DNA of 64,000 bases. Origin: Burkholderia contaminans (GTDB lineage: Bacteria; Pseudomonadota; Gammaproteobacteria; Burkholderiales; Burkholderiaceae). The notes beneath the pieces were generated by a model that saw nothing but the letters and a program-made list of their open reading frames with translations, made no database searches and was not told the DNA's origin. The position numbers were made by a program, and so were the translations under genes. The stretch covers positions 3,038,001 through 3,102,000 of the forward strand of contig NZ_CP090640.1 of the NCBI RefSeq assembly GCF_029633825.1. The letters run 5' to 3'. Shown here piece after piece: positions 34,142-54,062 of the stretch; position 1 is the first letter of the stretch, and the number at the start of each line of letters is the position of its first letter.

Positions 34142-37100
34142 TCACTCCCCCACCGTCTCCGCCTGCCGATCATCCCGCTTCGCCACCGCCACCGGCCGGC
34201 CCCGTCGCCCAGCCGACGCCACGACCCGAAACGCCACCGGCGCGAACACGAGCCCGAACACCGTCGCCGCCAGCACACCGCCGAACGCGCCCGTGCCGAT
34301 CGACCGCCGGCTTTCCGCACCCGCGCCCGTCGCCAGCACCAGCGGCACGACACCCAGCAGGAAAGCCATCGACGTCATCACGATCGGCCGGAATCGCGCA
34401 GCGGCCGCATCGACCACCGCCTGCCGCAACGGCACGCCGTGCGCGGTCAGGTCACGCGCGTACTGCACGATCAGGATCGCGTTCTTCGCGGCCAGCCCGA
34501 CCACGGTAATCATCCCGACCTTGAAGTACACGTCGTTCGGCATGCCGCGCGCGAGCGCCGCCGCGATCGCGCCGATCATGCCGAGCGGCACGATCGTCAG
34601 CACGGACAGCGGAATCGTCCAGCTTTCGTACAGCGCGGCCAGCGCCATGAAAACCGCGAGCACCGACAGCCCGACGAGCAGCGGCGTCTGCCGCGCGGCG
34701 ACCTGCTCCTCGCGCGCCGCATCGACCCAGTCGAAGCCGATCCCGGCCGGCAGCGCAGCGGCAAGCCGCTCCATCTCCACCATCGCCGCGCCCGAACTCG
34801 TGCCGGTCGCCGCGCGGCCGCTGATGTCGAGCGACGGATAGCCGTTGTACCGGTTCAACATCACCGGCCCGATCGTCCAGTGCGGCGCGGCGATGGCCGA
34901 CAGCGGCACCATGTCGCCGGTGCGGTTCGGCACGGTCAGCGCCATCAGTTGCATATCGGTCGCGCGTGCGACCGGATCGGCCTCGATGATCACCCGCCGC
35001 ATCCGGCCCGATGCCGGAAAGTCGTTGATGTAGTTCGAGCCGAACGTGCCGCCCAGCAGCCCCGCGATCCGCTCGAACGGCACGCCGAGCGCATACGCCT
35101 TCGCGCGATCGACATCGAGCTCGATACGCGGCGCGTCCGGCAGGTCTTCGAAATGCACGGCCGAGAGCAACGGGCTCGCCTTCGCGCGCTCGGCAAGCTG
35201 CTCGCGGGCCGCCTTCAACGCATCGAGCCCGACCCCGCCGCGATCCTCGAGCCGGAACGTGAAGCCGTCCGAATGCCCGATGCCGCGCACCGAAGGCGGC
35301 AGCGCCGCCTCGACGTCGCCGTCGAGGATCGCACCGAACCGCCCGTTGAGCCGGTCGCGCAACGCCATCGCATCGACGTCGCGTTTCGCCCAGTCCTTCA
35401 GTTCCACGAACGCCATGCCGACGTTCTGCCCACTGCCGACGAAACTCCAGCCGATCACGCTCGTCACGTTCGCAATCGCCGGCTCCCCGCGCATGATGGC
35501 CTCCACCCGTTCGACGACCGCGAGCGTGCGCGCCTGCGTGGCGCCGGCCGGCAACTGGATCATCACCTGCAATTGCCCCTGGTCCTCGGTGGGCAGGAAG
35601 CCGCCCGGCATCATCCAGTACAGCAGCCCGCACCCGATCACGAGCGCCGCATAGACAGCCACGACCAGGCCGGTGCGGCGCACCGCAAACACGGCAACGC
35701 GACGATAACCGGTTTCGGCACGCGCGAAGGCCGCACCGAACCGGTCGGCCAGACGCGCGCCGATGCCGCGTCGCCGCGCACGGCCGGCGCCGCCGTCGTG
35801 CCGCGCGACCGACTTCAGCAGGTTCGCGCACAGCGCGGGCGTGAGCGACAGCGCCATGAACGACGACACCAGCATCGACGCGATCATCGCGACCGCGAAC
35901 TGCCGGTAGATGCCGCCGACGCTGCCCGGGAAAAACGCCATCGGCACGAACACGGCGGTCAGCACCGCGGTCACGCCGACGATCGCCCCGCCGATCCGCT
36001 TCATGGCCCGGCGCGTGGCGTCGCGCGGCGACACGCCCTCCTCCATCACGCGGTGCACGCTCTCGACGACGACGATCGCATCGTCGACCAGGATGCCGAT
36101 CGCCAGCACGAGGCCGAACATCGTGAACACGTTGATCGACAGCCCGAATGCCCACATCGCGACGAACGCGCCCATCAGCGTGACCGGAATCACGACGGTC
36201 GGCACCAGCGTGTAGCGCAGGTCGCGCAGGAACAGCCACATCACGCAGAACACCAGCACGACAGCCTCGACGAGCGTCAGCACGACTTCGTGGATCGCGA
36301 TCTTGACGAAATGCGCACCGTCGAACGGAATCTCGACGGCAACGCCCGGCGGCAGCGTCCGCGACAGCTCGGCGAGCCGCGCGCGGATCGCCGTCGACGT
36401 TTCGAGCGCGTTGCCGCGCGGGCCGAGCTGGATGCCGACCGTCGCGGCCGGCCGGCCGTTCAGCCGCGAATAGAACGAATAGTCGTCGCGGCCGATCTCG
36501 ACGCGCGCGACATCGGCCACGCGCACCACCGAGCCGTCCTGTTTCGACTTCAGCACGATCCGGCCGAATTCCTCGGGCGACGTCAGCTGCCCCTTGACCA
36601 CGACCGTCGCGGTGAGCTGCTGGCCGCGCACGAACGGCGCATCGCCGATCGCGCCGGCCGTGACCGTCGCGTTCTGCGCGCTGATCGCCGTGATCACGTC
36701 GTCGGCGCCGAGATCGTATTCGCGCAACCTGACCGGATCGAGCCAGACCCGCAGCGCCTCGTCGGCATCCCACAGCTCGGCCGCGCCCACCCCCGGCGCG
36801 CGCTTCAGCTCGCGCAGCACGTAACGGTTCAGGTAATCGCCGAGCTGCGCGGAATCGCGCGTGCCGTCAGTCGACGTCAGCGTGACGAGCATCAGGAACG
36901 TGTTCGCCGCCTTGAACACGCCGATCCCCTGCTGGACGACCTGCTGCGGCAGCCGCGGCTCGACCTGCTTCAACCGGTTGTTGACGTCGACGAGCGCGAT
37001 GTCCGGATCGGTGCTCGGCGCGAACGTCACGTCGATCTCGAGGTTGCCGTGGCCGTCGCTGCTCGTCTCGTAGTACAGCAGCCCGTCGGCGCCGTCGAGG

Positions 37101-37303
37101 CTTTCCTCGATGATGCTGCCGACGTCGGCATCGACCGTCTCGGTCGACGCGCCCGGATAGGACGCGGTGATCACGACCCGCGGCGGCGCCAGGCGCGGAT
37201 ACTGCGCGATCGGCAACTGCGGAATGGCCAGCACGCCCGCGACGACGATCGCGAGCGCGACGATCCACGCGAAGACGGGACGGTCGATGAAGAATGACGG
37301 CAT
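34142..37303 (-). CDS. RND (HAE1) multidrug pump subunit without adaptor gene
   Basis: 1053 residues, normal for AcrB/MexF-type transporters, with twelve membrane segments and two large periplasmic loops. The proton relay is intact: the Asp pair in ILVDDAIVVVE and the Lys in GLAAKNAILIVQYARD. The N-terminus MPSFFIDRPVFAWIVAL is standard; ATG 37303 is preferred to the in-frame TTG two codons upstream. No membrane-fusion or outer-membrane partner is encoded nearby, so it must borrow partners or use a distant adaptor. It starts 21 bases after pmbA and looks like the last core gene of the Yej-TldD-PmbA operon. Confidence 0.95.
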   Translation of the reverse strand: MPSFFIDRPVFAWIVALAIVVAGVLAIPQLPIAQYPRLAPPRVVITASYPGASTETVDADVGSIIEESLDGADGLLYYETSSDGHGNLEIDVTFAPSTDPDIALVDVNNRLKQVEPRLPQQVVQQGIGVFKAANTFLMLVTLTSTDGTRDSAQLGDYLNRYVLRELKRAPGVGAAELWDADEALRVWLDPVRLREYDLGADDVITAISAQNATVTAGAIGDAPFVRGQQLTATVVVKGQLTSPEEFGRIVLKSKQDGSVVRVADVARVEIGRDDYSFYSRLNGRPAATVGIQLGPRGNALETSTAIRARLAELSRTLPPGVAVEIPFDGAHFVKIAIHEVVLTLVEAVVLVFCVMWLFLRDLRYTLVPTVVIPVTLMGAFVAMWAFGLSINVFTMFGLVLAIGILVDDAIVVVESVHRVMEEGVSPRDATRRAMKRIGGAIVGVTAVLTAVFVPMAFFPGSVGGIYRQFAVAMIASMLVSSFMALSLTPALCANLLKSVARHDGGAGRARRRGIGARLADRFGAAFARAETGYRRVAVFAVRRTGLVVAVYAALVIGCGLLYWMMPGGFLPTEDQGQLQVMIQLPAGATQARTLAVVERVEAIMRGEPAIANVTSVIGWSFVGSGQNVGMAFVELKDWAKRDVDAMALRDRLNGRFGAILDGDVEAALPPSVRGIGHSDGFTFRLEDRGGVGLDALKAAREQLAERAKASPLLSAVHFEDLPDAPRIELDVDRAKAYALGVPFERIAGLLGGTFGSNYINDFPASGRMRRVIIEADPVARATDMQLMALTVPNRTGDMVPLSAIAAPHWTIGPVMLNRYNGYPSLDISGRAATGTSSGAAMVEMERLAAALPAGIGFDWVDAAREEQVAARQTPLLVGLSVLAVFMALAALYESWTIPLSVLTIVPLGMIGAIAAALARGMPNDVYFKVGMITVVGLAAKNAILIVQYARDLTAHGVPLRQAVVDAAAARFRPIVMTSMAFLLGVVPLVLATGAGAESRRSIGTGAFGGVLAATVFGLVFAPVAFRVVASAGRRGRPVAVAKRDDRQAETVGE

Positions 37304-37324
37304 CGGCAAGTCTCGGCGAACGCG

Positions 37325-38686
37325 CTACAGCGTGAGCTCGAACGAACGCGCGAGCAGCCCCGGCAGTTGCGCGCCTCCGGTGGCGCGCTCGCCGTACGTG
37401 TCGTCGCTCGCGAGCAGCGCTGGCGCCGCGCCGAGCTGCTCGAGCGCCGACCCGAACAGCCGGTAGAAGCTGTCGTCGAACCGCATCGCGTCGACCGGCG
37501 CGACGATGCGCCCGCCTTCGACCCAGAACGTCGCGAACCGCGTCATCCCCGTCATCCGGCATGCGATCGGGTCGGAGAAGTTCAGGTACCAGAGGTTGCC
37601 GACGTAGAGCCCCGTGTCGAGCGCGGCCAGCACGTCGGCATCGGCGAGCGTGCCGCCGGCGATCGTCAGCGACTGCGGCGATTCGCCGTTGTCCGCGCCG
37701 TTCGGCGTGCGCCCTTGCTCGCGTGCAGTGCGTGCGCAGACGAGCTGCCCGGCGCCCCGCCCTTCGACGACGAGCGGCACGCTGTCGCGCCGGTAGCCGT
37801 CCGCGTTGAACGCCGGTGCGATGCCCAGCGTGAAATCCTCGGTGATCGACACGCGCGGATCGAGCGCGACCTCGCCGGCGTACAGGCGATGCAGCGGGCT
37901 GCGGGCGCTCGCCACCGCGCGCGCCGAAAAGCCGCTCCAGCCGAGCAGGCTCGTCATCTCGTGAATGGCGTCCGGCGCGAAATACGTGCGGTAGCGCCCG
38001 GGCGCAAGCGCCTTCGGCGCGCGGCCGAGCACGGGCAGCCGCGCGGCGGCCGCATCCACCTTCGCCGCGAATGCCGCATCGCGCCAGTCGTCGCCCGCAT
38101 GGACGGTCTTGATCGCGCGGCCGCTCGGGTCGTACAGCGACCAGCTGAAGTTGAAATTCTCGACCTCGTACCAGCCGCGGCTGCCGGTCGACGACGCGAA
38201 GCCGCGCGCCAGCGTGCCGCCCGCATAAAAGCCGACGAAGTCGAGCCCGCGCGCGCATTCGGCCACGATACGCGCGAGCCCGTCCGCATTCGGCAGGCGC
38301 CCGGTGCGGCGCGTTTCCTGCACCCACGACGAGGTATCGAACAGCAGGTGCGGATCGTCCTGCGCATCGCGCAGGCCGTCGCGCAGCACGGCGAGCGCGT
38401 CGGCCAGCTCGCGCAGGTCGGCCGCCGGATCGCCGCAGACAGTCAGTGCCGAGTGCGCCTGCCGCGCGCCGTCGATGAGCCGCACGGACAGCCGCCCCTG
38501 CGTGACACGCCCGGTCTGGCGAATCCTGCCGCCATTGAAACGGATGAAGTCGGACGTTTCGCCGGAGAAGCCGAGCAGCACGGTTTCGGCCGGCGCGGCC
38601 AGCCGTTGCGCGTCGTCGGCGAGCCGGGCGAAATACGCGTGCCAGTCGATTCCGGCGTGGCGTGCCATCGGATCGAATCCCGTCAT
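37325..38686 (-). CDS. PmbA/TldE-like protease partner subunit
   Basis: 453 residues of the TldD/PmbA (U62) family without the zinc motif, as expected of the TldE/PmbA partner. Characteristic segments are VLLGFSGETSDFIRFNGGRIRQTG at the N-terminus, NFSWSLYDPSGRAIK, and the closing FARVVPVDA-type MRFDDSFYRLFGSALEQLG. With TldD it forms a protease chamber that cuts unfolded or modified peptides, such as the microcin B17 leader. Its ATG shares one base with the tldD stop (TGATG), so expression is coupled. Confidence 0.9.
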   Translation of the reverse strand: MTGFDPMARHAGIDWHAYFARLADDAQRLAAPAETVLLGFSGETSDFIRFNGGRIRQTGRVTQGRLSVRLIDGARQAHSALTVCGDPAADLRELADALAVLRDGLRDAQDDPHLLFDTSSWVQETRRTGRLPNADGLARIVAECARGLDFVGFYAGGTLARGFASSTGSRGWYEVENFNFSWSLYDPSGRAIKTVHAGDDWRDAAFAAKVDAAAARLPVLGRAPKALAPGRYRTYFAPDAIHEMTSLLGWSGFSARAVASARSPLHRLYAGEVALDPRVSITEDFTLGIAPAFNADGYRRDSVPLVVEGRGAGQLVCARTAREQGRTPNGADNGESPQSLTIAGGTLADADVLAALDTGLYVGNLWYLNFSDPIACRMTGMTRFATFWVEGGRIVAPVDAMRFDDSFYRLFGSALEQLGAAPALLASDDTYGERATGGAQLPGLLARSFELTL

Positions 38687-40137
38687 CACGCGCCTCCGAA
38701 TACGTCGACGCCGGCGAACACGCAGGCCGGCGCGGCATGGCCGACACGGATGATCTGCGCGGGCTCGCCCTTCCCGCAGTACGGCGTGCCGTAGATGCCG
38801 AACGTGCTCGCATCGCCGACCGCGCGCAGGCTGCGCCAGAACTGGGCCGAGATGCCGCGGTAGTTCGGGCGCTTGACGACCTGCGTGAGCCGGCCGTTCT
38901 CGATCAGTTGCCCGAATTCGCAGCCGAACTGGAATTTGTTGCGGTGGTCGTCGATCGACCAGGACGTGTTGGTGCGCATCAGGATCCCGTGCTCGGTGCC
39001 CGCGATCAGCGCCTCGAGCGACTGGTCGCCGGGCTCGACGTTCAGGTTCGCCATCCGGTCGATCGGCGCGCGGTTCCAGCTCGACGCGCGCGAGTTGGCC
39101 ACGCCCGGCAAGCCCGCGCGCTGTTGCGACAGCGCCCCGCCGAGCAGCCGTTCGAGCACGCCGTTGCGGATCAGGTACTGCTTGCGCGCGGGCGTGCCGT
39201 CGTCGTCGAACGCGTAGGACGCGGCTTCGGCCGTCGGCTCGGGATCGAACGTGACGTTCAGCAGCGGCGAGCCATATTGATAGTGGCCGACCATCTCCGG
39301 CCTGACGAAGCTCGATCCGGCGAAGTTGCGCTCGTCGCCGAGAATCCGGTCGAGTTCGAGCGGATGACCGATCGACTCGTGGATCTGCAGCATCATCTGG
39401 TCCGGCATCAGCAGCAGGTCGCGCCGGCCGGTCGGGCAGTTCGGCGCGGCGAGCAACTGCAGCGCTTCATCGGCAACGCGAACGCCGGCGCCGTCGAAGC
39501 CGTAGCGCGCCAGCACGTCGATACCGCCCTGCGCCAGCGTGCCCGACTGACCGAGCGAGCGCGTCTGCGTGTCGCCATCGCCATGCGCGACGGCCTGCAG
39601 CTCGGGCATCAGGAAGCGGAAGCGCTGGTCGATCCGCACGCCGTCGCTCGTCACGTAACACTGCTCGGTGTGCACGATCATCACGCTCGCCGAACGCTCG
39701 ACGATGCGCGCGCCGAGGTTCGCCGCTGCGCATTCGTGCGCGAGACGCTCGATCCATTCCGCGCGCGACGGCAGCGCCGCATCGACATCGGGCGACGCAT
39801 AGGTGCCGCTCGCCTGCGGACGCGCGGCCTGGCGATGATCGACCAGCGCCCAAGGCGCGCTGGCCCGGGCCCGCGCCGTTGCGATGTCGAGCGCCGCCTG
39901 CAGCCCGGCCGGCGACAGGTCGGGCGTCGCCGCATAACCCGCGCCCGAGCCGGCCCAGGCCGTCAGCATCGCACCGCGCTCGCGCGTGCGCGAAAACGGC
40001 TGCGCGATGTCGTTGCGCACCGCGTGTTCGTCGATCGTCTCGTCGACGACGCGCAGCGACCAGAAATCGGCGTCGCTGCGCAGCGCCTGCGCCGCCTGCA
40101 CGGCTCGGGCGCCCGGCGCCCGGTTCTCGTCAATCAT
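38686..40137 (-). CDS. TldD-like zinc metalloprotease
   Basis: 483 residues. The metal and catalytic motif HESIGH is at residues 253-258 in MLQIHESIGHPLELDRILG, followed by NFAGSSFVRPEM and a C-terminal NVEPGDQSLEALIAGTEHGILMRTNTSWSIDDHRNKFQFGCEFG. It is the active half of the TldD/PmbA heterodimer. The gene starts inside the end of the YejF ATPase gene (8-base overlap), tying peptide import to peptide cleavage. The housekeeping tldD and pmbA genes are normally elsewhere, so this pair is likely a specialised duplicate. Confidence 0.93.
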   Translation of the reverse strand: MIDENRAPGARAVQAAQALRSDADFWSLRVVDETIDEHAVRNDIAQPFSRTRERGAMLTAWAGSGAGYAATPDLSPAGLQAALDIATARARASAPWALVDHRQAARPQASGTYASPDVDAALPSRAEWIERLAHECAAANLGARIVERSASVMIVHTEQCYVTSDGVRIDQRFRFLMPELQAVAHGDGDTQTRSLGQSGTLAQGGIDVLARYGFDGAGVRVADEALQLLAAPNCPTGRRDLLLMPDQMMLQIHESIGHPLELDRILGDERNFAGSSFVRPEMVGHYQYGSPLLNVTFDPEPTAEAASYAFDDDGTPARKQYLIRNGVLERLLGGALSQQRAGLPGVANSRASSWNRAPIDRMANLNVEPGDQSLEALIAGTEHGILMRTNTSWSIDDHRNKFQFGCEFGQLIENGRLTQVVKRPNYRGISAQFWRSLRAVGDASTFGIYGTPYCGKGEPAQIIRVGHAAPACVFAGVDVFGGA

Positions 40138-41773
40138 CGGTTCTCTCTTGCCTCTCCTGCGGGCCGTGCACCGGCGCCGGCATGGACGACGCGAGCAGCG
40201 CCCGCGTATACGGATGGGATGGCGCGTGCAGCACGTCGAGCGTCTCGCCCTCCTCGACCACGCGCCCTGCCTTCATCACGATGACCCGGTGGGCCATCGC
40301 GCGCATCACCGCCAGATCGTGCGTGATGAACAGGTAGCTGAGTTTGTACTTCTTTTGGAGATTCGTCAGCAGATTCAGCACCTGCTTCTGGATCGACACG
40401 TCGAGCGCGCTCGTCGGCTCGTCGAGCACCAGCAGTTCCGGCTCCACCGCCAGCGCCCGCGCGATCGCGATCCGCTGCCGCTGCCCGCCGGAGAACTCGT
40501 GCGGATAGCGCAGCATCGCCTCGGGCGGCAGGCCCACCTCCTGCAGCAGCGCGGCGATCCGCGCCCGCCGCGCGTCGCCGGCCACCTGCGGCCGGTGCAC
40601 GCCCAGCCCTTCGCCAACGATCTGCTCGACCGTCATGCGCGGCGACAGCGAGCCGAACGGATCCTGGAACACCACCTGCATGCGCCCGTACAGCGTGCGC
40701 CGGCCCTGCGTCGTGCGCAGCGACGCCAGCGGCATCCCGTCGATCTCGATCCCGCCCGATGCCGGCCGCTGCAGGCCGAGCACGGCCGACGCGAGCGTCG
40801 ATTTTCCCGAGCCCGACTCGCCGACGATCCCGAGCGTTTCGCCGCGCTTCAGGCTCAGCTGCACGTCGTGCACGGCGCGGAACGTCGTCTTGCCGAGCAC
40901 CGAGCGCCAGCCCTTTGCCGCGATGCGGTAGTCGACGGCAAGGTGCTGCACGTCGAGGATCGTCTGCGCGTCGTCAGCAACCGGCTCGACCGCCCGTTGC
41001 GGCGCGCTGTCGAGCAGCCGGCGCGTATACGGATGCTGCGGCGCCGCGAACAACGCGGCAGTCGTGTTGGTCTCCACCAGCACGCCCTTCTCCATCACGG
41101 CCACGCGCTGCGCGAAGCGCTGCACGAGGTTCAGGTCGTGCGTGATCAGCAGTACGGCCATCCCGCGCGCGGCGGCCTCCTGCTCCTGCAGCTCGATCAG
41201 CAGGTCGACGATCTGCTGGCGCACCGTCACGTCGAGCGCGGTCGTCGGCTCGTCTGCCAGCAGCAAGCGCGGCCGGCACGCCAGCGCCATCGCGATCATC
41301 GCGCGTTGCCGCTGCCCGCCCGACAGCTGATGCGGGAAGCTGTCGATGCGCCGCTCCGGCTCCGGAATCCCGGTGCGCCGCAGCAGCGCGATCCCGCGTT
41401 CGCGCGCATCGCCCGGGCGCAGCCCCTCGTGCAGCCGCAGGCTCTCGGCGATCTGCTTGCCGATCGTATACAGCGGATTGAGCGCGGTCATCGGCTCCTG
41501 GAACACCATCGCGATGTCGGCGCCGCGAATCCCGCGCATCTGCTGCTCCGTTTTCGCGAGCAGATCCTCGCCGTCGAACAGCATCCGCCCCGACAGCGTC
41601 GCCTGCTGCGCGAGCCGCAGGATCGACAGTGCCGTCACGCTCTTGCCCGACCCCGATTCGCCGACGAGCGCCACGCGCTCGCCGCGGCCGATCGACAGGC
41701 TGAGGTCCTGTACGGCCGCGTTCGCGCCGAAATGCGCGGAAAACCCGTCGATCTGCAGCAACGGAATCGTCAT
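40130..41773 (-). CDS. yejF: YejF-like peptide ABC transporter ATPase (fused, two ABC domains)
   Basis: 547 residues with two complete ABC modules. First module: Walker A GESGSGKSV, signature LSGGQRQR, Walker B LLLADEPTT; second: GESGSGKST, FSGGQRQRIAIARAL, LLVLDEPTSALD. The closing HPYTRALLAS segments are typical of oligopeptide ATPases. It energises YejABEF, the importer through which E. coli takes up microcin C. ATG 41773 overlaps the yejE stop (ATGA). Confidence 0.94.
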   Translation of the reverse strand: MTIPLLQIDGFSAHFGANAAVQDLSLSIGRGERVALVGESGSGKSVTALSILRLAQQATLSGRMLFDGEDLLAKTEQQMRGIRGADIAMVFQEPMTALNPLYTIGKQIAESLRLHEGLRPGDARERGIALLRRTGIPEPERRIDSFPHQLSGGQRQRAMIAMALACRPRLLLADEPTTALDVTVRQQIVDLLIELQEQEAAARGMAVLLITHDLNLVQRFAQRVAVMEKGVLVETNTTAALFAAPQHPYTRRLLDSAPQRAVEPVADDAQTILDVQHLAVDYRIAAKGWRSVLGKTTFRAVHDVQLSLKRGETLGIVGESGSGKSTLASAVLGLQRPASGGIEIDGMPLASLRTTQGRRTLYGRMQVVFQDPFGSLSPRMTVEQIVGEGLGVHRPQVAGDARRARIAALLQEVGLPPEAMLRYPHEFSGGQRQRIAIARALAVEPELLVLDEPTSALDVSIQKQVLNLLTNLQKKYKLSYLFITHDLAVMRAMAHRVIVMKAGRVVEEGETLDVLHAPSHPYTRALLASSMPAPVHGPQERQERTDD

Positions 41774-45984: not shown

Positions 45985-46029
45985 AAAAAAGGCCGCCCCG
46001 AAAAGGGGGTAGTGGACGTGGAGCGGCCT
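45985..46029 (-). terminator. Intrinsic terminator after TonB-dependent receptor gene
   Basis: On the minus strand AGGCCGCTCC (46029-46020) pairs with GGGGCGGCCT (45999-45990) with one wobble pair, across a 20-base loop, and is followed directly by five or six T residues. It lies 33 bases after the receptor stop, so it likely limits read-through into yejA. Confidence 0.75.
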
Positions 46030-46061: not shown

Positions 46062-48845
46062 TCAGAACTTGTACGTCGCGCCGACCTGCGCGAACCGGCC
46101 GATGTACGAGTACACCGACGTGTCGTACCCGCTCTGGCTCAGCGTGCCGTTCGCGAAGATCGGGTCGTACGGCGGCGTGCGGTTGAAGAGGTTGTCGATG
46201 CCGCCGTAGATCGTCCAGTTCTTGAAGCCCGTGTACGTCACCATCAGGTTGAACTGGCTGTACGAACCGACCTTGCTCGGCTCGGGCATCAGGTTCTGCG
46301 CGTACGGGCCCGTGAACTGCCACGTCAGCGCCGCATCGAACTTCCGGTAGTTCCAGTCCAGCGTCGTGTTGCCGCGCCAGCGCGGGAAGCTGCCGCCGAA
46401 CGGCTGCGTGATCGTGAAGTTGTTGCCCGCGCCGTTGACCGGTGCGGCGCCCGGGAAGCCGATCTTGTAGCTGTTGACGTAGGCCCAGTCGCCCGACAGC
46501 GTAAGCGTGCCCCAGCCCTTCAGCGGCAAGCCCTGGCGGAACGTGCCTTCGAAGCCGTTCGTGTCGAGGTAGCCGAGGTTCTGGTACGGAATCACCTTGT
46601 ACAGCAGCTGGCCGGTCGTCGGGTCGGTCACGACCTGCGACGGCTTGCCCTGGCCGATCACGTTGTCGATGCGGATCTTGTACCAGTCGAAGCCGAGGTC
46701 GGTGTAACGGCTCGGCGAGACCTGGAAGCCGATATTGAGGTTACGCGTGCGCTCCGGCGCGAGGTTCGGGTTGCCGACGGTGATCGACGTGTAGTTCTGG
46801 CCGGTGGCCGGATCGACCTGGATGCCGAGCGTCTGCGATTTGCTGTCCTCGACGAAGGTCGGCGCGCGGAAGCCGCGGTTGTACGACGTATACAACGTGA
46901 GCGCCTTGATCGGCTGGTACCGCAACGCGAAGCGCGGCGAGAAAGCGCCGCCCACGTCGGTGTAGTGATCGTAGCGGCCTGCCTGGCTGAACGTCAGGTT
47001 TTCGATGATCGGTATGTTGATCTGGTAATAGATGGCCGCGACGTTGCGCTGGCCATCCACCGTCTCGAGGTCCGGTGTGATGACGGCCCCGCTCAGGTAC
47101 TCGGAACCCGGCGTCAGCGTTTCGCTCTGGTGCGTGAACTGCGCGCCGAAGCCGATGCCGACGTCGCCGGCCGGCAAATGGAACAGGTTCGGCGTCGACA
47201 GCGTCGCATCGATCGTGTCGAGCTTCGAGATGCCGAGGTTGTTCGCCTCCTGATAGAGGCCGTTGAACGCGTTCGGCGTCGCGGCCGGGTTCGCGAAATT
47301 CAGCGTGCCGTTCTGGTAGATGTTGTTCAGCGCATTCACGTTCAGCTGGTTCGTGAACACGTTCGACACCGTGCTCTGCGAATGGCTGACCGACGTCGCC
47401 CAGTCCCAGTCGCCGTACGGCAGCGTGAACGACCCCTTGATGCCGGCGGCCGCCCGCCAGTAGTTGGCCCAGGTCTTTTGCGCGACCGTGTTCGGAAACG
47501 CATAGGTGAGCGGCGTGGCCGCGCCCGTCGTGTTGTACGGGTTGCTGGCCGGCACCGTGTAGTTGAACGGCGACAGCAGCTTCGTCTGCGGATTCCAGAC
47601 GAGCGCCGGGTTCTGCGAGTTGCCGATCACGTTGTTCCACAGGCCGTCGTTGGTCGTGGTCGTGTTGTAGCTCTCCATGAAGTCGGCGAACGCGGTCGTC
47701 TTGTCGTCGATCTTGAAGTCACCATGGAGCTTCGCGTTCAGGCGCTCGGTCATCGGCAGGATCGACGTGCTTTCCGCCGTGTTGTACCCGCAGACGGTGC
47801 CCGGCAACCCGGCCGACAGCGAATTCGACGCGGCCGGACGAACCGAGCCGCCGAACGGGCAGCCGCCGCTCAGCGCCTGCGCACTGCCGTCGGGCATGTT
47901 CCAGTAGGACGGCGCGAGCAGCGAGAAGCCGCCCGGCTTGCCCGTGAAGTCCTGGTTGCGCGTGGAATCGCGGTCGGCCAGCGTGAAGCCGTTCGACTTG
48001 TAGTAGCTGAGCGCGGCCGTCACGTTGAAGCGGTCGGCGTTCAGGTCGCCGAAGCCGCCGAGCACGCCGAACTTCATCGTGCCGTCGCCGTTGCCGGCGT
48101 TGATCGCGCTGCCGAGGCTGCCGTCGAGCTGCAGCCCGCGGAAATTGTGTTTCGTGATGATGTTGACGACACCGCCGATCGCGTCCGAACCGTACTGCGA
48201 CACGGCGCCCGTCTTCACGATTTCGATCCGCTCGATGTCGTTGAGCGGGATCGTGTTGAGGTCGAAGAACGAATCGACGCTGTTCGAGAAGAATGCATAC
48301 GGCGCGACGCGCTGGCCGTCGACCAGCACGAGCGTGTACTTCTCCGAGAGGCCGCGCAGTGCAATGCCGGCCGCGCCCGCCGCGAAGTTGCCCGACTGCC
48401 CTTCGCCCCAGCTGTTCGCCGAGTTGGCTGCCGCATCGCGCAGGAAGTCGGCGACGGTCACCGCGCCGCTGGCCTGGATTTCCTTCGGCGTGATCGTCTG
48501 CACCTGCTGGAAGCCCGTCTTGTCGGCTTGCCGGATCAGCGAGCCCGTCACTTCGAACCGCTTGATCTGCGCGACCTTGCCCTGCCCGTCCGCGGCGGGT
48601 GCGGCAGGCGTCGCGTCGGCCGACGCATCAGGCGCCGCGGGCGCTGCGGTGCTTGCGGCAGCACCCGCCGTGCCGCCCGCCTGTGCAACGGTCACGGGCG
48701 CGCCGCTCGCGACCGCATCCGCGATCGCGACGGCGCCCGGCGCCGGCTGGCTCTGGGCGAACGCCGGCGGCGCCAGTACGGCCGTCAGCGCGAGTTCCGC
48801 CCAGACTATCCTCTTGATGGCCAACGCCAACACTCTCTGCTTCAT
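46062..48845 (-). CDS. TonB-dependent outer-membrane receptor
   Basis: 927 residues. A signal peptide (MKQRVLALAIKRIVWAELALTAVLAPPAFA) is followed by an Ala/Pro-rich spacer of about 60 residues, the plug (VEVTGSLIR-type FEVTGSLIRQADKTGFQQVQTITPKEI, then GLSEKYTLVLVDGQRVAPY and VNIITKHNFRG) and a 22-strand barrel ending in GRFAQVGATYKF with a terminal Phe. The substrate cannot be read directly. Co-directional tonB-exbBD upstream and the Yej peptide importer downstream point to a peptide or peptide-metal ligand rather than a simple siderophore. GAGGGA precedes ATG 48845; a terminator follows the gene. Confidence 0.94.
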   Translation of the reverse strand: MKQRVLALAIKRIVWAELALTAVLAPPAFAQSQPAPGAVAIADAVASGAPVTVAQAGGTAGAAASTAAPAAPDASADATPAAPAADGQGKVAQIKRFEVTGSLIRQADKTGFQQVQTITPKEIQASGAVTVADFLRDAAANSANSWGEGQSGNFAAGAAGIALRGLSEKYTLVLVDGQRVAPYAFFSNSVDSFFDLNTIPLNDIERIEIVKTGAVSQYGSDAIGGVVNIITKHNFRGLQLDGSLGSAINAGNGDGTMKFGVLGGFGDLNADRFNVTAALSYYKSNGFTLADRDSTRNQDFTGKPGGFSLLAPSYWNMPDGSAQALSGGCPFGGSVRPAASNSLSAGLPGTVCGYNTAESTSILPMTERLNAKLHGDFKIDDKTTAFADFMESYNTTTTNDGLWNNVIGNSQNPALVWNPQTKLLSPFNYTVPASNPYNTTGAATPLTYAFPNTVAQKTWANYWRAAAGIKGSFTLPYGDWDWATSVSHSQSTVSNVFTNQLNVNALNNIYQNGTLNFANPAATPNAFNGLYQEANNLGISKLDTIDATLSTPNLFHLPAGDVGIGFGAQFTHQSETLTPGSEYLSGAVITPDLETVDGQRNVAAIYYQINIPIIENLTFSQAGRYDHYTDVGGAFSPRFALRYQPIKALTLYTSYNRGFRAPTFVEDSKSQTLGIQVDPATGQNYTSITVGNPNLAPERTRNLNIGFQVSPSRYTDLGFDWYKIRIDNVIGQGKPSQVVTDPTTGQLLYKVIPYQNLGYLDTNGFEGTFRQGLPLKGWGTLTLSGDWAYVNSYKIGFPGAAPVNGAGNNFTITQPFGGSFPRWRGNTTLDWNYRKFDAALTWQFTGPYAQNLMPEPSKVGSYSQFNLMVTYTGFKNWTIYGGIDNLFNRTPPYDPIFANGTLSQSGYDTSVYSYIGRFAQVGATYKF

Positions 48846-49182
48846 TTTGTTCCCTCTCGCTCGTAGTAAGACCCCACCTGCTGTGCGCCGGAACCTTGTG
48901 AATTCCTTGCGCGTCCTGGGTGCCCGTGTACCGGAACCCGCGATTGCCACGCTTTCGACTGCCACGACTCGAACGGATCGGCCTCGGGTCACCCGCACCA
49001 TCCAGCGTCACCGTCTTTTTCTATTTTGATTCGACATGCTAAACACCTACATTGAGCGCATTGCCTGCTTCTTCCCGATTCGACGGGCAGCGGGTTCCGT
49101 ACAACGCGAACCCGTGTGCGCGCCGTACCGCGCCCGCTTCTGCCGTCGATCGGGTACTTCTCCTTCCTGCCGGCCGCCTTCG
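48846..49182. other. Promoter/5' region of the TonB-dependent receptor
   Basis: 337 bases between the regulator stop and receptor start. There is no convincing ORF. The AT-richer part at 49010-49050 may hold the receptor promoter, but I could not find a clear -35/-10 pair, and I see no convincing Fur box. Confidence 0.4.
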
Positions 49183-49758
49183 CTAGAACAGCCTGGGCGT
49201 ACCGACCCAGACGATCACCGCCTCTTCGTCGGCCGTATTGCGCCACGCATGCGGCATCGTCGATTCGTAATGCGCGGTATCGCCCTCGTTCAGCGTGAAC
49301 GTGCAATCCTCCAGCGTCAGCGCCAACTGCCCGCGCAACACGTAGACGAACTCCTCGCCGGCATGCGTCGTCATCTCGGACGGCAGTTGCCCCGCCGGCA
49401 TCCGGACGAGAATCGCGTCGAGCTTGCGACTGTCCACCGGGTTCGTCAGCCTGGCGAACCGGCTGGCCGAGTTCGTGAACTGGAAATACTGCAGCGCGTT
49501 GCCGCGGCATACCGAGCGCGCTTCCGTCGGCGTGTCGATGAAGTACTGCATCGTCACGCCCAGCGCCTTCGCGATCCGCACCAGCGACGTGATCGACGGC
49601 GTCGCCCGCCCGCGCTCGACCTGCGACAGGAACGGCTTCGAAATGCCGGCGATCGTCGACGTTTCGTCGAGCGTGAGTTTCAGGCGCTGGCGCAGCGCCC
49701 GGATCTTGTTGCCGAGCGACACGGCGACGAGCACCGACTCATCAGGGGGCAAAGCCAT
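49183..49758 (-). CDS. XRE-cupin transcriptional regulator
   Basis: 191 residues. The HTH_3 domain is at about 14-68 (GNKIRALRQRLKLTLDETSTIAGISKPFLSQVERGRATPSITSLVRIAKALGV) and a cupin_2 sensor occupies the C-terminal 75 residues (THAGEEFVYVLRGQLALTLEDCTFTLNEGDTAHYESTMPHAWRN). Regulators of this PuuR/SutR type respond to small molecules such as amino acids, polyamines or peptides. Lying inside the TonB-receptor-Yej run, it is the obvious candidate local regulator. ATG 49758 matches the usual start; the longer frame upstream is not conserved-looking. Confidence 0.92.
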   Translation of the reverse strand: MALPPDESVLVAVSLGNKIRALRQRLKLTLDETSTIAGISKPFLSQVERGRATPSITSLVRIAKALGVTMQYFIDTPTEARSVCRGNALQYFQFTNSASRFARLTNPVDSRKLDAILVRMPAGQLPSEMTTHAGEEFVYVLRGQLALTLEDCTFTLNEGDTAHYESTMPHAWRNTADEEAVIVWVGTPRLF

Positions 49759-50058
49759 GGAAAGACGGTCCCTCTCAGTCGAAATCGGTTTGATGTCGTC
49801 AAGCCTCGACCGATGCCGTGATGCAGCCGGCCCGGCGCGATCCCCCGCCGCACGCTGCCGCGACGTGCAAGCCACGCGCGGTGCGGCAGCGCACCGGCGT
49901 CGTGCGGCCTCGCAGCGCGTGCTCATTTCATTCGGTTTACTAATTAACAAGATTGCCCCTTTCCATCGGCTTACCTGCTCGTCGTGCATCGGTGCGATCG
50001 CGGCGGCACACCGCTTTCCGGCCGCTGGCGTGGCGCGCGGCCGTGTCCTTCCGTTGCG
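49759..50058. other. 300-base gap upstream of XRE-cupin gene
   Basis: Non-coding as far as I can see. An AT-rich patch at 49925-49970 (TTTACTAATTAACAAG) is the likeliest promoter position for the regulator. Confidence 0.4.
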
Positions 50059-51249
50059 TTACCGTGAGGCCACCACCGTCCAGAGCCGTGCCAGATCACC
50101 GGAACCGTCGGTGCCCTTGACCGTGCGCAGCACCTGGACCGCACGCGCCTTCTGGCCGGCCACGTAATACGCCTCGCCGAGCCGCAGCCGCGCCGCATCG
50201 GGATGCTCGAGCCCGCCCTTCGCGATCGCCTGCTCCATCATCGACAGCCCCTGCTGCGCATGGCCCTCGAAGACGAGGTTCATGCCCGCGTCGATCGGCG
50301 CGGCCGGCGTCGTGGCGTCTGCGCCCGATTGCGCGCGCTTCGCCGCGAGCGTCTGCAGCCGCTTCTCGCGATCCGCCTGCGCGTCCTTGCCGAGTACGCC
50401 GGACGCGAACCCCTGGTCGATCACCTGCTTGCCTTCGGCGGCCGAGCCCGCGACCAGCGCGAGCTGCGTCATTTCCATGTATGCGCCGGCGGTCGAGAGC
50501 GAGCCCGTCGCCCGTCGCAACCGGTAGATGTCGAGGTCGAGCGACGGTAGATACCCGGGGTTGCCGCGAATGGCCGTGACCATTTCGTCCCAGTACGCGG
50601 GGCTCGGGTGATACGCCACCAGCAGTCCGAGCGCACTGCGATATGCGTTGCCGTCCTTCACTTTCTGCGCGCAGCTCGCCAGCATCTGCAACTGCCCTTC
50701 ATCCGGTGCGTGTCCGCCATTCGCCTGCGCGTCGGTGCTCGCTTTCAACTGGCTCACGAGCGGTGCGCAATCGTTCGACAGGTAGTAAGACTGCGTGAGC
50801 AGCGTGCGCATTTCCGGATCCGAGCCACCCGCCTTCAGGTAGCGCTGTGCGACGCGGATCGCCAGCGGGTAGTTCTTCTGCTGGAAGTAGATGCCGGCCA
50901 GCGCCGCCGTGGTCCGCTGCTCGTCTTCGCCCGACAGCCGGCCGGAGTTCAGCACGCTCTCGTAGGCTTGTGCGGCCGTGCCCGAGTCGCCGGCTGCCAT
51001 CGCTGCCGCGCCGCGCATTTCTTCCACCACGGTGGTTTCGTACGGCGTCCGGTTCGGCACGGCGGCCGCCTGGGCGATCTTGCCCAGCGCGTCGCGATAC
51101 TTGTGCGCCCGGTACAGCTCCTGCGCGGCCGCCAACGGTTTCGCCACGTCCGGCCGCAGCGCGTCCGCCGGCAGCGCCGGGCGGCCGAGCAGGGCCGCCG
51201 CGCCGAGCGCCGCCACCGCCATCATCCGTTTCAGTCGTCGCGGGTTCAT
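50059..51249 (-). CDS. Periplasmic TPR-repeat protein of the TonB system
   Basis: 396 residues with a signal peptide (MMAVAALGAAALLGRPALPA) and TPR-like helical pairs (AAQELYRAHKYRDALGKIAQAAA, AAQAYESVLNSGRLSGEDEQRTTAALAGIYFQQKNYPLAIRVAQRYL, and a last pair at LEHPDAARLRLGEAYYVAGQKARAVQVLRTVKG). It lies 16 bases after exbD on the same strand. TPR proteins found with TonB/ExbBD in other proteobacteria are thought to organise the energy-coupling complex; a scaffold role in the periplasm is inferred. Confidence 0.88.
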   Translation of the reverse strand: MNPRRLKRMMAVAALGAAALLGRPALPADALRPDVAKPLAAAQELYRAHKYRDALGKIAQAAAVPNRTPYETTVVEEMRGAAAMAAGDSGTAAQAYESVLNSGRLSGEDEQRTTAALAGIYFQQKNYPLAIRVAQRYLKAGGSDPEMRTLLTQSYYLSNDCAPLVSQLKASTDAQANGGHAPDEGQLQMLASCAQKVKDGNAYRSALGLLVAYHPSPAYWDEMVTAIRGNPGYLPSLDLDIYRLRRATGSLSTAGAYMEMTQLALVAGSAAEGKQVIDQGFASGVLGKDAQADREKRLQTLAAKRAQSGADATTPAAPIDAGMNLVFEGHAQQGLSMMEQAIAKGGLEHPDAARLRLGEAYYVAGQKARAVQVLRTVKGTDGSGDLARLWTVVASR

Positions 51250-51265: not shown

Positions 51266-51697
51266 TCATTGCATGAACTGTTCGTTACCGATCAGGCCGA
51301 TCTTGGTCGCGCCCACGCGTTGCGCGGAGGCGAGCACCGCGGCCACGTCCTTGTACGGCACCAGCTTGTTGGGGCGCAGATGGATCTCCGCCTGCACGGG
51401 CTCCGCTGCCACCTGGGTCAGTTTCGACTCGAGCGTCGCGCGGTCCGGCACCGGCGCGCCGTTCCATGTCGTCGTACCGTCGAAGTCGATGTCGATCTGC
51501 ACGATTTCCGGCGGCGCGGCCGGCGGCGGCGGATTCCCCACCGGCAGGTCCATCTTCACCGAATGCATCTGAATCGGGATCGTGATGATCAGCATGATCA
51601 GCAACACCAGCATCACGTCGATCAGCGGCGTGGTGTTGATATCGACCATCACTTCCGGTTCGGCATTGCTCCCGCCCGAAGGCACATTCATTCCCAT
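51266..51697 (-). CDS. ExbD-like energy-coupling protein, copy 1
   Basis: 143 residues: short cytoplasmic N-terminus ending EVMVDINTTPLIDVMLVLLIMLIITIPI, with the critical Asp in the membrane segment (PLIDVML), and a periplasmic domain (VQIDIDFDGTTTWNGAPVPDRATLESKL). It forms the proton-driven ExbB/ExbD motor for TonB. AGGAG precedes ATG 51697. It differs clearly from copy 2, so the two may form a heteromeric or ligand-specific motor. Confidence 0.92.
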   Translation of the reverse strand: MGMNVPSGGSNAEPEVMVDINTTPLIDVMLVLLIMLIITIPIQMHSVKMDLPVGNPPPPAAPPEIVQIDIDFDGTTTWNGAPVPDRATLESKLTQVAAEPVQAEIHLRPNKLVPYKDVAAVLASAQRVGATKIGLIGNEQFMQ

Positions 51698-51710
51698 CGT
51701 CGACTCCTGT

Positions 51711-51876
51711 CGATCCACGTTAGCGCTTTAGCGCTTACGTGGGTCCCATGCTTCGCGGTCGATCCACGTCAGCCCTTCAGCGCTTACGTGGGTCCCATGC
51801 TTCGCGCTCAACCCACGTCACCCCTTCAGCGCGTACTTGGATCTCATGCCTCGCGCTCGACCGGCGTCAGCGCTCC
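51711..51876. repeat. 49-bp tandem repeat, three and a half copies
   Basis: Units begin at 51711, 51760, 51809 and (partial) 51858, giving an exact 49-base period. The core is CCACGT...CTTACGTGGGTC...CATGCTTCGCGCT; the first two units are nearly identical and the third has drifted. Each unit contains an inverted repeat (CCACGT with ACGTGG) that can fold into a 6-9 bp hairpin. The period is not a multiple of three and no gene uses it. It lies in the 225-base gap between the two exbD genes. Confidence 0.9.
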
Positions 51877-51922
51877 ACCACTTGCCGCCAGCCCCCTATC
51901 CCGCCACGATTGCGCGGCGCGA

Positions 51923-52345
51923 CTATCCCCCGCGCGCCGGCGGCTCCGTAATGAACGACAGCTTCGCGATCCCCGCGCGCTCGCACATCGTGACCACCCG
52001 ACCGATGAACTCGTAGCGCGTGTTCTGATCGCCCCGCACGTGGACGCTCGGCTGCGGCTGCTGCTGCGACACGTCCTTCAGTTTCGCGAGCAGCGTCTGT
52101 GCGTCCACCAGTTGCTCGCCCCAGAAGAAATCGCCGTCGCGGTTCACCGCGATCTCGATGCTCTTCGGCGTCGTCTGCAGCGGCTGCACCGTCTCCTTCG
52201 GCAACTGAAGCTGGATCGTGTGCGTCACGACCGGAATCGTGATCAGGAAGATGATCAGCAACACCAGCATCACGTCGACGAGCGGCGTCGTGTTGATGTT
52301 GGCGATCACCTCGTCGCTATCGTCCTGCCCGACGTTCATGGCCAT
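51923..52345 (-). CDS. ExbD-like energy-coupling protein, copy 2
   Basis: 140 residues: ANINTTPLVDVMLVLLIIFLITIPVVTHTI with the conserved membrane Asp, then a periplasmic domain (PKSIEIAVNRDGDFFWGEQLVDAQTLLAKL, SVHVRGDQNTRYEFIGRVVTMCERAGI). It starts 20 bases after exbB and is probably its direct partner. Systems with one ExbB and two ExbD are known in Xanthomonas and relatives. Confidence 0.94.
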   Translation of the reverse strand: MAMNVGQDDSDEVIANINTTPLVDVMLVLLIIFLITIPVVTHTIQLQLPKETVQPLQTTPKSIEIAVNRDGDFFWGEQLVDAQTLLAKLKDVSQQQPQPSVHVRGDQNTRYEFIGRVVTMCERAGIAKLSFITEPPARGG

Positions 52346-52365
52346 CGCGCGTCTCCGTCAGCCGA

Positions 52366-53277
52366 TCAGTTCGCAAGCGACGCAGTTGCCGGCGACGACG
52401 CGCGCACCGGGCGCCGATTGCCGGCCAGCAGCACCGTGTGCAGTTGCGCACCGAAGTTGCGCACCCGCTCCATCACCGATTTGTTGCGCCGAACCAGGAA
52501 GTTGTAGCCGAGCACCGCCGGCACCGCGACGGCGAGGCCGATTGCGGTCATGATGAGCGCCTCGCCCACCGGGCCGGCGACCTTGTCGATCGATGCCTGG
52601 CCGGCGATGCCGATGGCCGTCAGCGCGTGATAGATCCCCCAGACCGTGCCGAACAGCCCGACGAACGGCGCGGTGGAGCCCACCGTGGCGAGGAAGGCGA
52701 GCCCGTCCTGCATCCGGTTCGACACGTTCGTGATCGAGCGCTCGACCGACACGTCGATCCACGTATTGCGGTCCACTGCTTCCAGCAGCGCCTCGTCATG
52801 ATGCTCGCCGGCCTCGATCGCCGTTTCGGCGATGAAGCGGAACGGCGATGCCTCGTCGAGCAGCTTGGCGCCCTCGGCCAGCGACGGTGCGGACCAGAGC
52901 TGGGCGTCCGCCAGCTTCGCGCGGCGATTGGCGCGCAACTGCTCCACGAACTTCGTGATCATGATGTACCAGCTTCCCATCGACATGATCACGAGCAGGA
53001 TCAGCACGAAACGGGCGACGAAATCGCCGTTCTTCCAAAGCGCACCGAGCCCGTACGGATTCTCGACCGCTTCCGTCGTGGCCGGCGCGGGCGGCGGAGC
53101 CGGCTCGGCGGCGGCCGGAGCCTGCGCCGGCGCAGCCGACGGCGCCGCGGCCTGTGCCGACGTGCCGGCCGCGCCGCTTGCCTGCGCGTGGGCGAGCTGC
53201 GGTGCAACGAACCCGTCGATTGCGGCGACGGACATCAGGATGCTTGCCGCCAGCGCGGCCAGTGAACGCTTCGTCAT
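52366..53277 (-). CDS. exbB: ExbB-like (MotA/TolQ/ExbB) proton channel protein
   Basis: 303 residues. A signal-like N-terminus (ALAASILMSVAAIDGFVAPQLAHA) and an Ala/Pro-rich periplasmic spacer precede three membrane segments: FVARFVLILLVIMSMGSWYIMITKF, LATVGSTAPFVGLFGTVWGIYHAL and ALIMTAIGLAVAVPAVLGYNFLVRR, where the GSTAPFVGLFGTVWG motif is the family hallmark. It forms the pentameric channel around ExbD and powers TonB. It lies 86 bases after tonB. Confidence 0.95.
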   Translation of the reverse strand: MTKRSLAALAASILMSVAAIDGFVAPQLAHAQASGAAGTSAQAAAPSAAPAQAPAAAEPAPPPAPATTEAVENPYGLGALWKNGDFVARFVLILLVIMSMGSWYIMITKFVEQLRANRRAKLADAQLWSAPSLAEGAKLLDEASPFRFIAETAIEAGEHHDEALLEAVDRNTWIDVSVERSITNVSNRMQDGLAFLATVGSTAPFVGLFGTVWGIYHALTAIGIAGQASIDKVAGPVGEALIMTAIGLAVAVPAVLGYNFLVRRNKSVMERVRNFGAQLHTVLLAGNRRPVRASSPATASLAN

Positions 53278-53363
53278 ACCCCACTCCAGTTAATTCGATG
53301 AACTTAATATGCCAGTTCGAGATGGTTTTCTCCGGCCCGGATCGCACCGGGCCGCCCACTGCA

Positions 53364-54062
53364 TCAATTCAGATTGAACGAGAACGGTACCTGGACCCGT
53401 ACCGGCTGGCCCTGCGCGACGCACTTGAATCGCTTCACGGTGTTGAAGGCAGCGCGATCGAGGATCGGATCGGCCGACTGCGCCACACGCTCGTTCGTGA
53501 TGTTCCCTTCCGCATCCACGACGAATTCGATGGTCACGTCACCCGTGATGTTGTTTTCCTGCGCTTCCTTCGGGTACTGGATCGACGCGCGAAGCGTGTC
53601 CGAATTCGGGCAGACCACCCCCACGTCATGGCTGACCGGCTTGGCCGGCGCCGGAGGCGCCACGACCGGCGCCTGCACGGCCGGCGCGGACGGTACCGGG
53701 GCCGCCTGATGCGTGATCGTCGCCTGCGGCGGCGCCTGCACCGGCACTTCCGGCGGCGGGACGAACGGCGGTGGCGGCGGCGCGAATTTCGGCGGCGGGA
53801 GCTTGACGACGGGCATCGGCGGCGGCGGCGGTGGCTTGACCGGCTCGATGATGCGGGTTTCGATCGGGTGCTGGATCACCTGCACGACTTTCGTCGCAAG
53901 GCCGTTGAGCAGCGCGTAGATCAGCACGGCATGCAGCACCAGGACGATTCCGATGCCGCCGAACCGGCGTACCGGGTTCTGTTGCTTCTTGCCGAACTCT
54001 CGCGGACGGCCCAGCGTAGCCAGTCCGCTGTTCGACGTAGCCAGACGTTCTTCGACTTTCAT
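53364..54062 (-). CDS. tonB: TonB energy-transducing protein
   Basis: 232 residues: a cytoplasmic N-terminus, one membrane anchor (IGIVLVLHAVLIYALLNGLATKV), a long Pro-rich periplasmic spacer with poly-Pro runs (KPPPPPPMPVVKLPPPKFAPPPPPFVPPP), and a C-terminal TonB domain (RASIQYPKEAQENNITGDVTIEFVVDAEGNITNERVAQSADPILDRAAFNTVKRFKC). I prefer ATG 54062; another in-frame ATG lies three codons upstream at 54071. It links the motor to the receptor at 46062-48845 and heads the minus-strand run. Confidence 0.94.
   Translation of the reverse strand: MKVEERLATSNSGLATLGRPREFGKKQQNPVRRFGGIGIVLVLHAVLIYALLNGLATKVVQVIQHPIETRIIEPVKPPPPPPMPVVKLPPPKFAPPPPPFVPPPEVPVQAPPQATITHQAAPVPSAPAVQAPVVAPPAPAKPVSHDVGVVCPNSDTLRASIQYPKEAQENNITGDVTIEFVVDAEGNITNERVAQSADPILDRAAFNTVKRFKCVAQGQPVRVQVPFSFNLN

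Follow-up and report, generated by a model that had tools for sequence, protein, structure and literature searches.

In proteobacteria, TonB-dependent receptors are mostly read as receptors for iron or vitamins, and the passage of peptides across the outer membrane is usually ascribed to porins, through which microcin C enters E. coli. In Bacteroidota, RagAB is a TonB-driven peptide uptake system, and in methanobactin uptake the receptor MbnT pairs with the binding protein MbnE. At the inner membrane, Yej imports microcin C according to the accessible parts of two papers (PMC9239234, PMC6495379); excerpts of a third describe the entry of phazolicin into S. meliloti via BacA and YejABEF and state that intracellularly acting peptides commonly pass the outer membrane via porins or TonB-ExbBD transporters, the one used by phazolicin not being pinpointed in these excerpts (PMC10128002). 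For E. coli YejA, the available part of a further study reports a large pocket and binding of self-derived peptides of 10-19 residues, binding of antimicrobial peptides not being seen there (PMC10924461). Here we analyse a locus of 14 neighbouring genes in Burkholderia contaminans, located in a 64,000-nucleotide stretch (NZ_CP090640.1, positions 3,038,001 to 3,102,000), which will be referred to as the window and to which all positions below refer. The genes lie on the minus strand from tonB (54071) down to an RND permease gene (34142), and encode, among others, a TonB-dependent receptor with its motor proteins, a Yej-type importer and a TldD/PmbA pair. The host genome comprises 9.4 Mb; of the named strains whose loci were fetched, those of Burkholderia aenigmatica, B. 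puraquae and B. lata are closest to it.

We consider it probable that this locus is a module dedicated to the uptake of oligopeptides, in which the inner-membrane stage can be swapped and the peptidase is optional. The large TonB-dependent receptor would draw energy from its own TonB-ExbB-ExbD-ExbD set to move a peptide across the outer membrane, after which YejA would bind it and pass it to YejBEF for pumping into the cytoplasm. The imported peptide might then be cut by TldD/PmbA where this pair is present and by other peptidases where it is not. Processing would be a plug-in, consisting of TldD/PmbA between yejF and the RND gene in the lineage of the window, supplemented by two N-acetyltransferases (GNATs) in many Paraburkholderia, and of neither in some genomes; the GNATs and the RND pump may deal with the products, and the XRE-cupin protein may control the receptor. 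Gene content, conservation, the repeated change in tldD/pmbA presence, the changes of partner and the conserved metal-site-type residues are direct observations, from which we infer that the ligand is a peptide and in which direction it travels.

A search of 150 Burkholderiaceae genomes for Yej genes like those of the window (E<=1e-180) was positive in 28. A receptor as well as TonB/Exb motor genes accompany Yej in 27 of these 28 loci, the exception being L195 with neither; the count of 28 is independent of the tldD-based sampling bias mentioned below, but rests on the E cut-off, which L195 passes without receptor or motor. In these whole-genome searches only the best first-look candidates were scored. 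The survey of co-occurrence proposed by an earlier sequence-only reading of the window therefore excludes that the genes are adjacent in this strain only. The gene set is kept in Burkholderia, Paraburkholderia and Trinickia with varying order and is, judged by this conservation, a module and more than a chance neighbourhood. TldD relatives (E<=1e-60) occurred in 16 of the 150 genomes including the window's own; 15 carry Yej genes beside tldD, and the sixteenth (G071) has tldD-pmbA alone. A second sample consisted of 80 named loci, the best 80 of 542, which were fetched via tldD so that tldD-positive modules are over-represented. In this sample yejB was found in 59 loci, all of which also carry yejE, yejF, tldD and pmbA, with the receptor visible in 56 and RND in 52. 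As the named loci end 10 kb from tldD, motor genes are often outside the view (tonB in 7/59). The sets L023-L037 and L038-L117 share genomes; nine duplicate loci were removed for the tree and retained in the divergence comparison, and near-identical stretches were dropped for the motif, hairpin-gap and Fur-box counts.

The order of the parts varies. Five loci among L023-L036 (L029, L032-L035) have receptor and regulator placed before tonB, and the motor is inverted and lies beyond RND in L046, L048, L061 and L063, partly also in L056. In nine loci (L036, L070, L072, L075, L080, L091, L094, L095 and L098, with L036 and L094 being one genome), a different, non-orthologous ExbB-ExbD-TonB trio is situated between receptor and yejA. 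Since a motor is retained even where its genes are replaced, it appears to belong to the module. The shuffled gene order might also be explained by a chance neighbourhood of unrelated genes, as might a terminator-like hairpin between receptor and yejA and the coming and going of tldD/pmbA. However, in three genera the genes have remained neighbours although their order changed and the motor was inverted or replaced, and this explanation is largely excluded, with a slim chance left to it.

The receptor gene (46062..48845, minus strand) encodes a protein with plug (PF07715, 4.9e-20) and beta-barrel (PF00593, 8.4e-40) domains, both over the Pfam cut-off. Members of its family were also found with other importers. 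A receptor 80% alike is listed for the plant endophyte Paraburkholderia phytofirmans. In the three genomes examined of another Burkholderiaceae genus, a receptor of this family (48-50% identity to that of the window) occurs together with the second motor type and OppABCD. The OppA protein of L209 has OppA as best NCBIfam match (3e-158, below cut-off) and matches solved OppA proteins at ~1e-140 or better; L210 and L211 carry the same genes as L209 by tblastn, with 70-90% identity. A paralogous receptor followed by a Dpp-like binding protein and ABC (ATP-binding cassette) genes was observed in L213 and L216, both of one genus, and in L214 the family receptor is followed by a dipeptidase. Altogether, five of nine receptor-family loci outside the Yej module carry Opp or Dpp-like genes and one a dipeptidase. 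Within the Yej module, a POT di/tripeptide symporter gene directly follows yejF on the same strand in L198 and L199, the protein of L199 matching a solved POT at 3.9e-188. Among the module loci, POT was found by tblastn only in these two, which are sisters on the tree, so that this counts as one event. In four genomes, a gene for a peptide-class binding protein (SBP_bac_5) was present within ~5 kb of 5/11 family receptors versus 2/88 other receptors (Fisher p 1.2e-4). A distant receptor (L207, 33%, another family) was considered and rejected, as none of the other module genes lie beside it. We give an even chance to the wider proposal of an unnamed Proteobacteria family of TonB-dependent oligopeptide receptors, often with their own motor, which pair with interchangeable importers (Yej, Opp, Dpp-like, POT) and processing enzymes (TldD/PmbA, dipeptidase, GNATs) and would be the Burkholderiaceae counterpart of Bacteroidota RagAB peptide uptake.

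Several observations weigh against peptide uptake by a receptor with exchangeable partners. Three of the nine receptor-family loci outside the Yej module (L208, L215, L217) are without a recognised peptide importer, and an NMT1/nitrate-type binding protein lies beside the dipeptidase of L214. The four genomes of the Fisher test were selected because they carry the receptor family, and 5 of the 11 receptors sit in Yej modules; leaving these out, the comparison is 2/6 versus 2/88 (p 0.019). Each partner change is limited to one genus and hence counts once. The NCBIfam scores of all Yej and Opp proteins are under the curated cut-offs, and no shared operator was found upstream of yejA, so that co-regulation of receptor and importer is no more than possible. 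Finally, the solved structures matched by the receptor are those of siderophore, colicin I and B12 receptors, the plug region being the part that aligns.

These plug matches, together with sub-cut-off NCBIfam matches of the receptor to heme and siderophore receptors, would fit uptake of a peptidic siderophore or metallophore, in which a metal-peptide passes the receptor and then Yej, the peptide being broken or modified by TldD/PmbA and the GNATs and recycled by the RND pump present in the locus. The periplasmic binding protein YejA (43902..45824, minus strand; Pfam SBP_bac_5) points in the same direction, as the methanobactin-binding MbnE (5icq) is its third PDB match; its best PDB sequence matches are 4ony, 7z8e, which we take to be an S. 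meliloti protein, MbnE and E. coli YejA, and its best NCBIfam match is NikA, no Yej model being listed. However, with corrected starts and a single Fur-box consensus, no enrichment of Fur boxes was detected ahead of tonB, the XRE gene, the receptor gene, yejA or the genes of the alternative motor, the mean best scores being 9.57 (shuffles 9.91) for tonB, 10.24 (10.05) for XRE, 9.92 (10.16) for the receptor, 9.67 (9.59) for yejA and 10.00 (9.93) for the alternative exbB. Furthermore, the partners elsewhere (Opp, Dpp-like, POT) look like general peptide transporters and not like siderophore permeases, and a siderophore-release enzyme was not recognised in the block. We therefore regard a metallophore as an unlikely ligand.

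The genome contains a second, related TonB-ExbB-ExbD set (L203, G000:C3:741000-760999) with 67-83% identity. It lies near a receptor that is only 26-32% alike, Opp-like ABC genes, a GNAT and luciferase-like monooxygenases, and perhaps serves sulfur scavenging.

Among the 28 Yej genomes, TldD (E<=1e-60) is present in 15 and lacking in 13. Mapping of the Yej loci from every one of the 13 genomes without TldD showed receptor and motor genes in 12 and neither in L195. As the genomes were searched whole, the gene has not merely been relocated in these 13, as far as the search sees. About 27-163 bp separate yejF from the RND gene after it in L187, L188, L189, L193, L196, L197 and L212, whereas two GNAT genes and then RND come after yejF in the TldD-less locus L194. 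A quick tree was built from 78 Yej sets, of which 13 lack TldD (one being the second copy of G141); on it, presence of tldD/pmbA changes at least seven times, gain and loss being indistinguishable. TldD/PmbA is an optional, plug-in part of the module. The sequence-only reading had proposed for the locus both uptake across two membranes and processing; a line of receptor, motor and importer for peptides is indeed conserved in many species, whereas the protease is not integral to it. The substrates which that reading suggested, a modified peptide (microcin-like or another ribosomally synthesized and post-translationally modified peptide) or a host peptide, have not been borne out, as nothing specific points there.

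In the window the optional pair consists of a tldD-like metallopeptidase subunit gene (38686..40137) and a pmbA/tldE-like partner (37325..38689; PmbA_TldD_3rd 9.2e-22, 13-member alignment), both on the minus strand and both with PmbA_TldD domains over the cut-off. Residues H253, E254, H258 and C454 of TldD are invariant in 13/13 aligned proteins and align with HE..GH and a Cys of E. coli TldD (5nj5), in agreement with a metal site of the HExxxH type and a C-terminal Cys.

Outside Burkholderiaceae, TldD/PmbA pairs without the module were found in 27 stretches from 27 genomes, which were mapped only by tblastn with module proteins (L177 being just 4.6 kb and L152 11.6 kb long); Dpp-like permeases were seen in L155, L157 and L163, and receptors of 28-31% in L161 and L170. 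In L170 (G781), a tldD/pmbA pair of another family has both the receptor (28%) and genes resembling ExbB/ExbD (44-45%) in its vicinity, and this layout might be a parallel case. In Burkholderia sp. SRS-46 (L043, 365-12792), tldD/pmbA lie downstream of genes for HlyD, a C39-peptidase ABC exporter, an outer-membrane channel, an MFS protein and a GNAT; neither Yej genes (beyond a 29% ATPase match) nor a receptor match were detected in L043. A link of TldD/PmbA to C39-type exporter and GNAT genes (L043) or to betaine-type genes (Pseudomonas, L115) was rejected, as no consistent association emerged. One genome (G141) harbours two Yej/receptor modules (L190 and L025), one with and one without tldD/pmbA. 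In Burkholderia paludis (L041), only tldD, pmbA, RND and a yejF scrap are left near an aminoacyl-tRNA editing gene, which looks like module decay at the same site. The genome of the window encodes six PmbA_TldD-domain proteins: the two of the window, two more from neighbouring genes on C3, and two from solitary genes on C1.

Downstream of pmbA, the AcrB-type RND permease gene (34142..37303, minus strand) matches ACR_tran with E=0 and NCBIfam RND_permease_1 over the cut-off. An adaptor gene was not recognised beside it, and its downstream neighbour is a GST gene. RND is present in 7 of the 13 TldD-less loci L187-L199 and in L212, and missing from 7 of the 59 named TldD-positive Yej loci. In 43 of these 59, and in 4 of a set of 15 consisting of the window locus and L023-L036, pmbA is followed by one or both of two GNAT genes. 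The window locus itself has no GNAT gene, a 42% relative being located elsewhere in the genome. Both GNATs show sub-cut-off NCBIfam matches to an arsinothricin-resistance acetyltransferase, all their NCBIfam matches being below cut-off, and GNAT2 has weak PDB matches to phosphinothricin acetyltransferases, its best match being PA1377.

Receptor and GNATs diverge fastest. Among pairs of loci with YejB/E/F and TldD averaging at least 88% alike, duplicate genomes included, the receptor has a median identity of 62.5% and falls below 65% in 51% of 253 pairs, values which include cases where the best of several tandem receptor hits was taken (L027, L047, L049 and L055 are examples). Identity below 65% was likewise observed for GNAT1 (27% of 288 pairs), GNAT2 (40% of 311) and XRE (12% of 138), and in no pair for yejA, yejB, yejE, yejF, tldD, pmbA, RND, TPR or exbB. 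The receptor as the outer part and the GNATs as the chemical-modification part thus seem to vary most, which would be in keeping with exposure to ligands that change.

This fast divergence, and the resemblance of the GNATs to resistance enzymes, could also suit detoxification of, or immunity against, a Trojan-horse peptide, either microcin C-like or carrying a toxic amino acid, which would be imported, cut by TldD/PmbA, acetylated at its payload by the GNATs and exported by RND. TldD/E is also said, going by a title, to activate a Yersinia microcin. The parts mirror microcin C biology as the accessible portion of one paper presents it, with Yej import, payload acetylation by a GNAT (MccE) and an MFS exporter (PMC9239234). 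Nevertheless, the window locus is without GNAT, TldD/PmbA is missing in 13 of 28 genomes, and a receptor for a poison would presumably be profitable only if the cell feeds on the poison. No precursor-peptide or biosynthesis gene was recognised with the module among the annotated genes, small open reading frames having been listed only for the receptor-yejA gap and the gap upstream of tonB. The annotated genes of the block are not mcc-like and GNATs occur only in relatives, precursor-size reading frames being outside this comparison. Detoxification accordingly appears improbable, and we continue to favour uptake of oligopeptides.

The make-up of YejABEF, i.e. a binding protein, two permeases and a double ATPase, is found in the window. 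Best NCBIfam models for YejB, YejE and YejF are Yej models, each below its curated cut-off: the permease gene yejB (42839..43888) matches YejB at 6.4e-129 with 430 bits versus a cut-off of 445, the permease gene yejE (41773..42885) the microcin C permease at 1.4e-116 with 389 versus 439 bits, and yejF (40130..41773), encoding the double ATPase, YejF at 5.6e-188 with 626 versus 834 bits, all three on the minus strand. A second Yej is present elsewhere in the genome, its YejB being 69% identical to that of the window, and because there are also other TldD/PmbA copies, the window set is an additional one. Both the second Yej and the accessory nature of the module (28/150 genomes) argue against recovery of cell-wall peptides in the manner of Agrobacterium YejBEF-YepA, where, in the part of the source available, a Yej-type transporter does muropeptide recycling (PMC9790009). 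In addition, recycling of the cell's own wall should need no outer-membrane receptor, and this role is very improbable for the locus.

All 14 genes listed by the sequence-only reading proved real and lie on the minus strand where it had placed them, based on open reading frames, codon-position GC and Pfam/NCBIfam matches; only the starts of the receptor and XRE genes were corrected. The motor genes are tonB (53364..54071; Pfam TonB_C 5.7e-17, NCBIfam tonB_Cterm), exbB (52366..53277; MotA_ExbB 1.3e-32) and two exbD genes (51923..52345, ExbD 9e-30, and 51266..51718, ExbD 5.9e-25). Between the latter, at 51710-51871, a 49-bp unit that contains an inverted repeat is repeated 3.3 times in tandem; the length of this gap varies among close relatives, and the copy number of the repeat may do so as well. 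The following TPR protein gene (50059..51249; Pfam TPR_16/TPR_19) encodes an N-terminus that is signal-peptide-like by eye; the protein has no NCBIfam family at 1e-6 and no match to SusD/RagB, as Pfam yields TPR-type models only. For the XRE-cupin regulator (49183..49758; HTH_3 and Cupin_2) the longest reading frame extends to 49989, of which distant relatives span just the last 66-78%, and for the receptor (19-member alignment) to 49001. As more distant relatives align only from about residues 47-53 of the receptor and 60-90 of the XRE protein, these longest frames start too far upstream, and 48845 (MKQR...) and 49758, respectively, are the likely starts. A 4-bp overlap of the GST gene with RND is probably a start artefact too. 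The overlaps from yejE through pmbA claimed earlier were confirmed by coordinates and translations, with TGATG-type junctions at yejE/yejF and tldD/pmbA and 8 bp shared by yejF and tldD.

Between receptor and yejA, a terminator-like hairpin with a 10-bp stem, a 20-nt loop and a T run is located at 45985..46029 (minus strand). Such hairpins were observed in 8/26 non-redundant receptor-yejA gaps versus 0 in mononucleotide shuffles, and the fold of the window stretch taken alone is unremarkable (z -1.31). A hairpin scan that allowed only shorter loops does not list it. At least two transcripts are therefore likely, and the locus is probably not one operon. A candidate operator, TTAG-N5-CKAA, was picked by eye from the same sequences as were then tested; exact copies on the minus strand lie ahead of the receptor (49030..49042) and ahead of the likely XRE start (49931..49943). 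These are the only two exact sites in the window versus 0.45 expected, and 4/100 shuffles reach at least two. A weak copy with one mismatch precedes tonB (54172..54184, minus strand), the window containing 27 one-mismatch matches versus 20.8 expected. Among relatives, the exact motif was found in 9/38 non-redundant receptor upstreams (0.3 expected), in 6/47 XRE upstreams (0.33 expected), all in Burkholderia and with the corrected rather than the long-frame start, and in 1/11 exbB upstreams (0.05 expected). Upstreams of tonB contain one-mismatch copies only (4/7 versus 1.3 expected), and those of yejA no exact copy (0/48) and nothing above chance. An excess of 7-of-8 matches upstream of pmbA (21/48) lies inside the tldD coding sequence and was dismissed as a probable coding effect. 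Blind dyad counting gave no clear signal for palindromic operators, and no Rfam match was obtained at gathering thresholds in 33000-56000.

If the proposal holds, a receptor family recurring with several peptide importers would let peptides too large for porins enter, and peptide antibiotics might use the same gate. It would also offer a handle for finding the ligand and for learning in what way Burkholderiaceae from soil and plants exploit peptides or render them harmless. TldD/PmbA, in turn, can be a removable part of an uptake locus. The view of the sequence-only reading that the arrangement is not a named system is in agreement with our search of open-licence papers, partly by titles, in which no title among the matches listed describes the combination.

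Compared with YejABEF of E. coli, Sinorhizobium and Brucella, YejB, YejE and YejF are nearest to Yej models and YejA to solved YejA-type proteins, but the set here is a second copy that comes with a receptor and a motor of its own, and its NCBIfam scores stay under the cut-offs of the Yej models. With the heterodimeric metalloprotease TldD/TldE (PmbA) the locus shares adjacent tldD-like and pmbA-like genes and the metal-site-type residues aligned with E. coli TldD, whereas its proteins belong to a distant subfamily (81 bits to E. coli TldD), the PmbA-like protein having no NCBIfam match at 0.001. Methanobactin uptake (MbnT and MbnE) likewise combines a receptor with a YejA-like binding protein (5icq), while here a complete ABC importer, an own motor and a peptidase are present and a metal link was not seen. 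The job proposed here, TonB-driven peptide uptake across the outer membrane, is also that of RagAB among the RagAB/SusCD importers of Bacteroidota, but a SusD/RagB lid is not matched by Pfam and the partner is a binding-protein ABC importer. In microcin C import and immunity, as far as covered by the accessible portion of the source, Yej, GNAT and exporter recur (PMC9239234), whereas the block has no recognised mcc genes and a TonB receptor instead of a porin. A receptor combined with an ABC importer is thus of a known kind; the new element would be a receptor family whose peptide importers can be exchanged and whose TldD/PmbA step can be left out.

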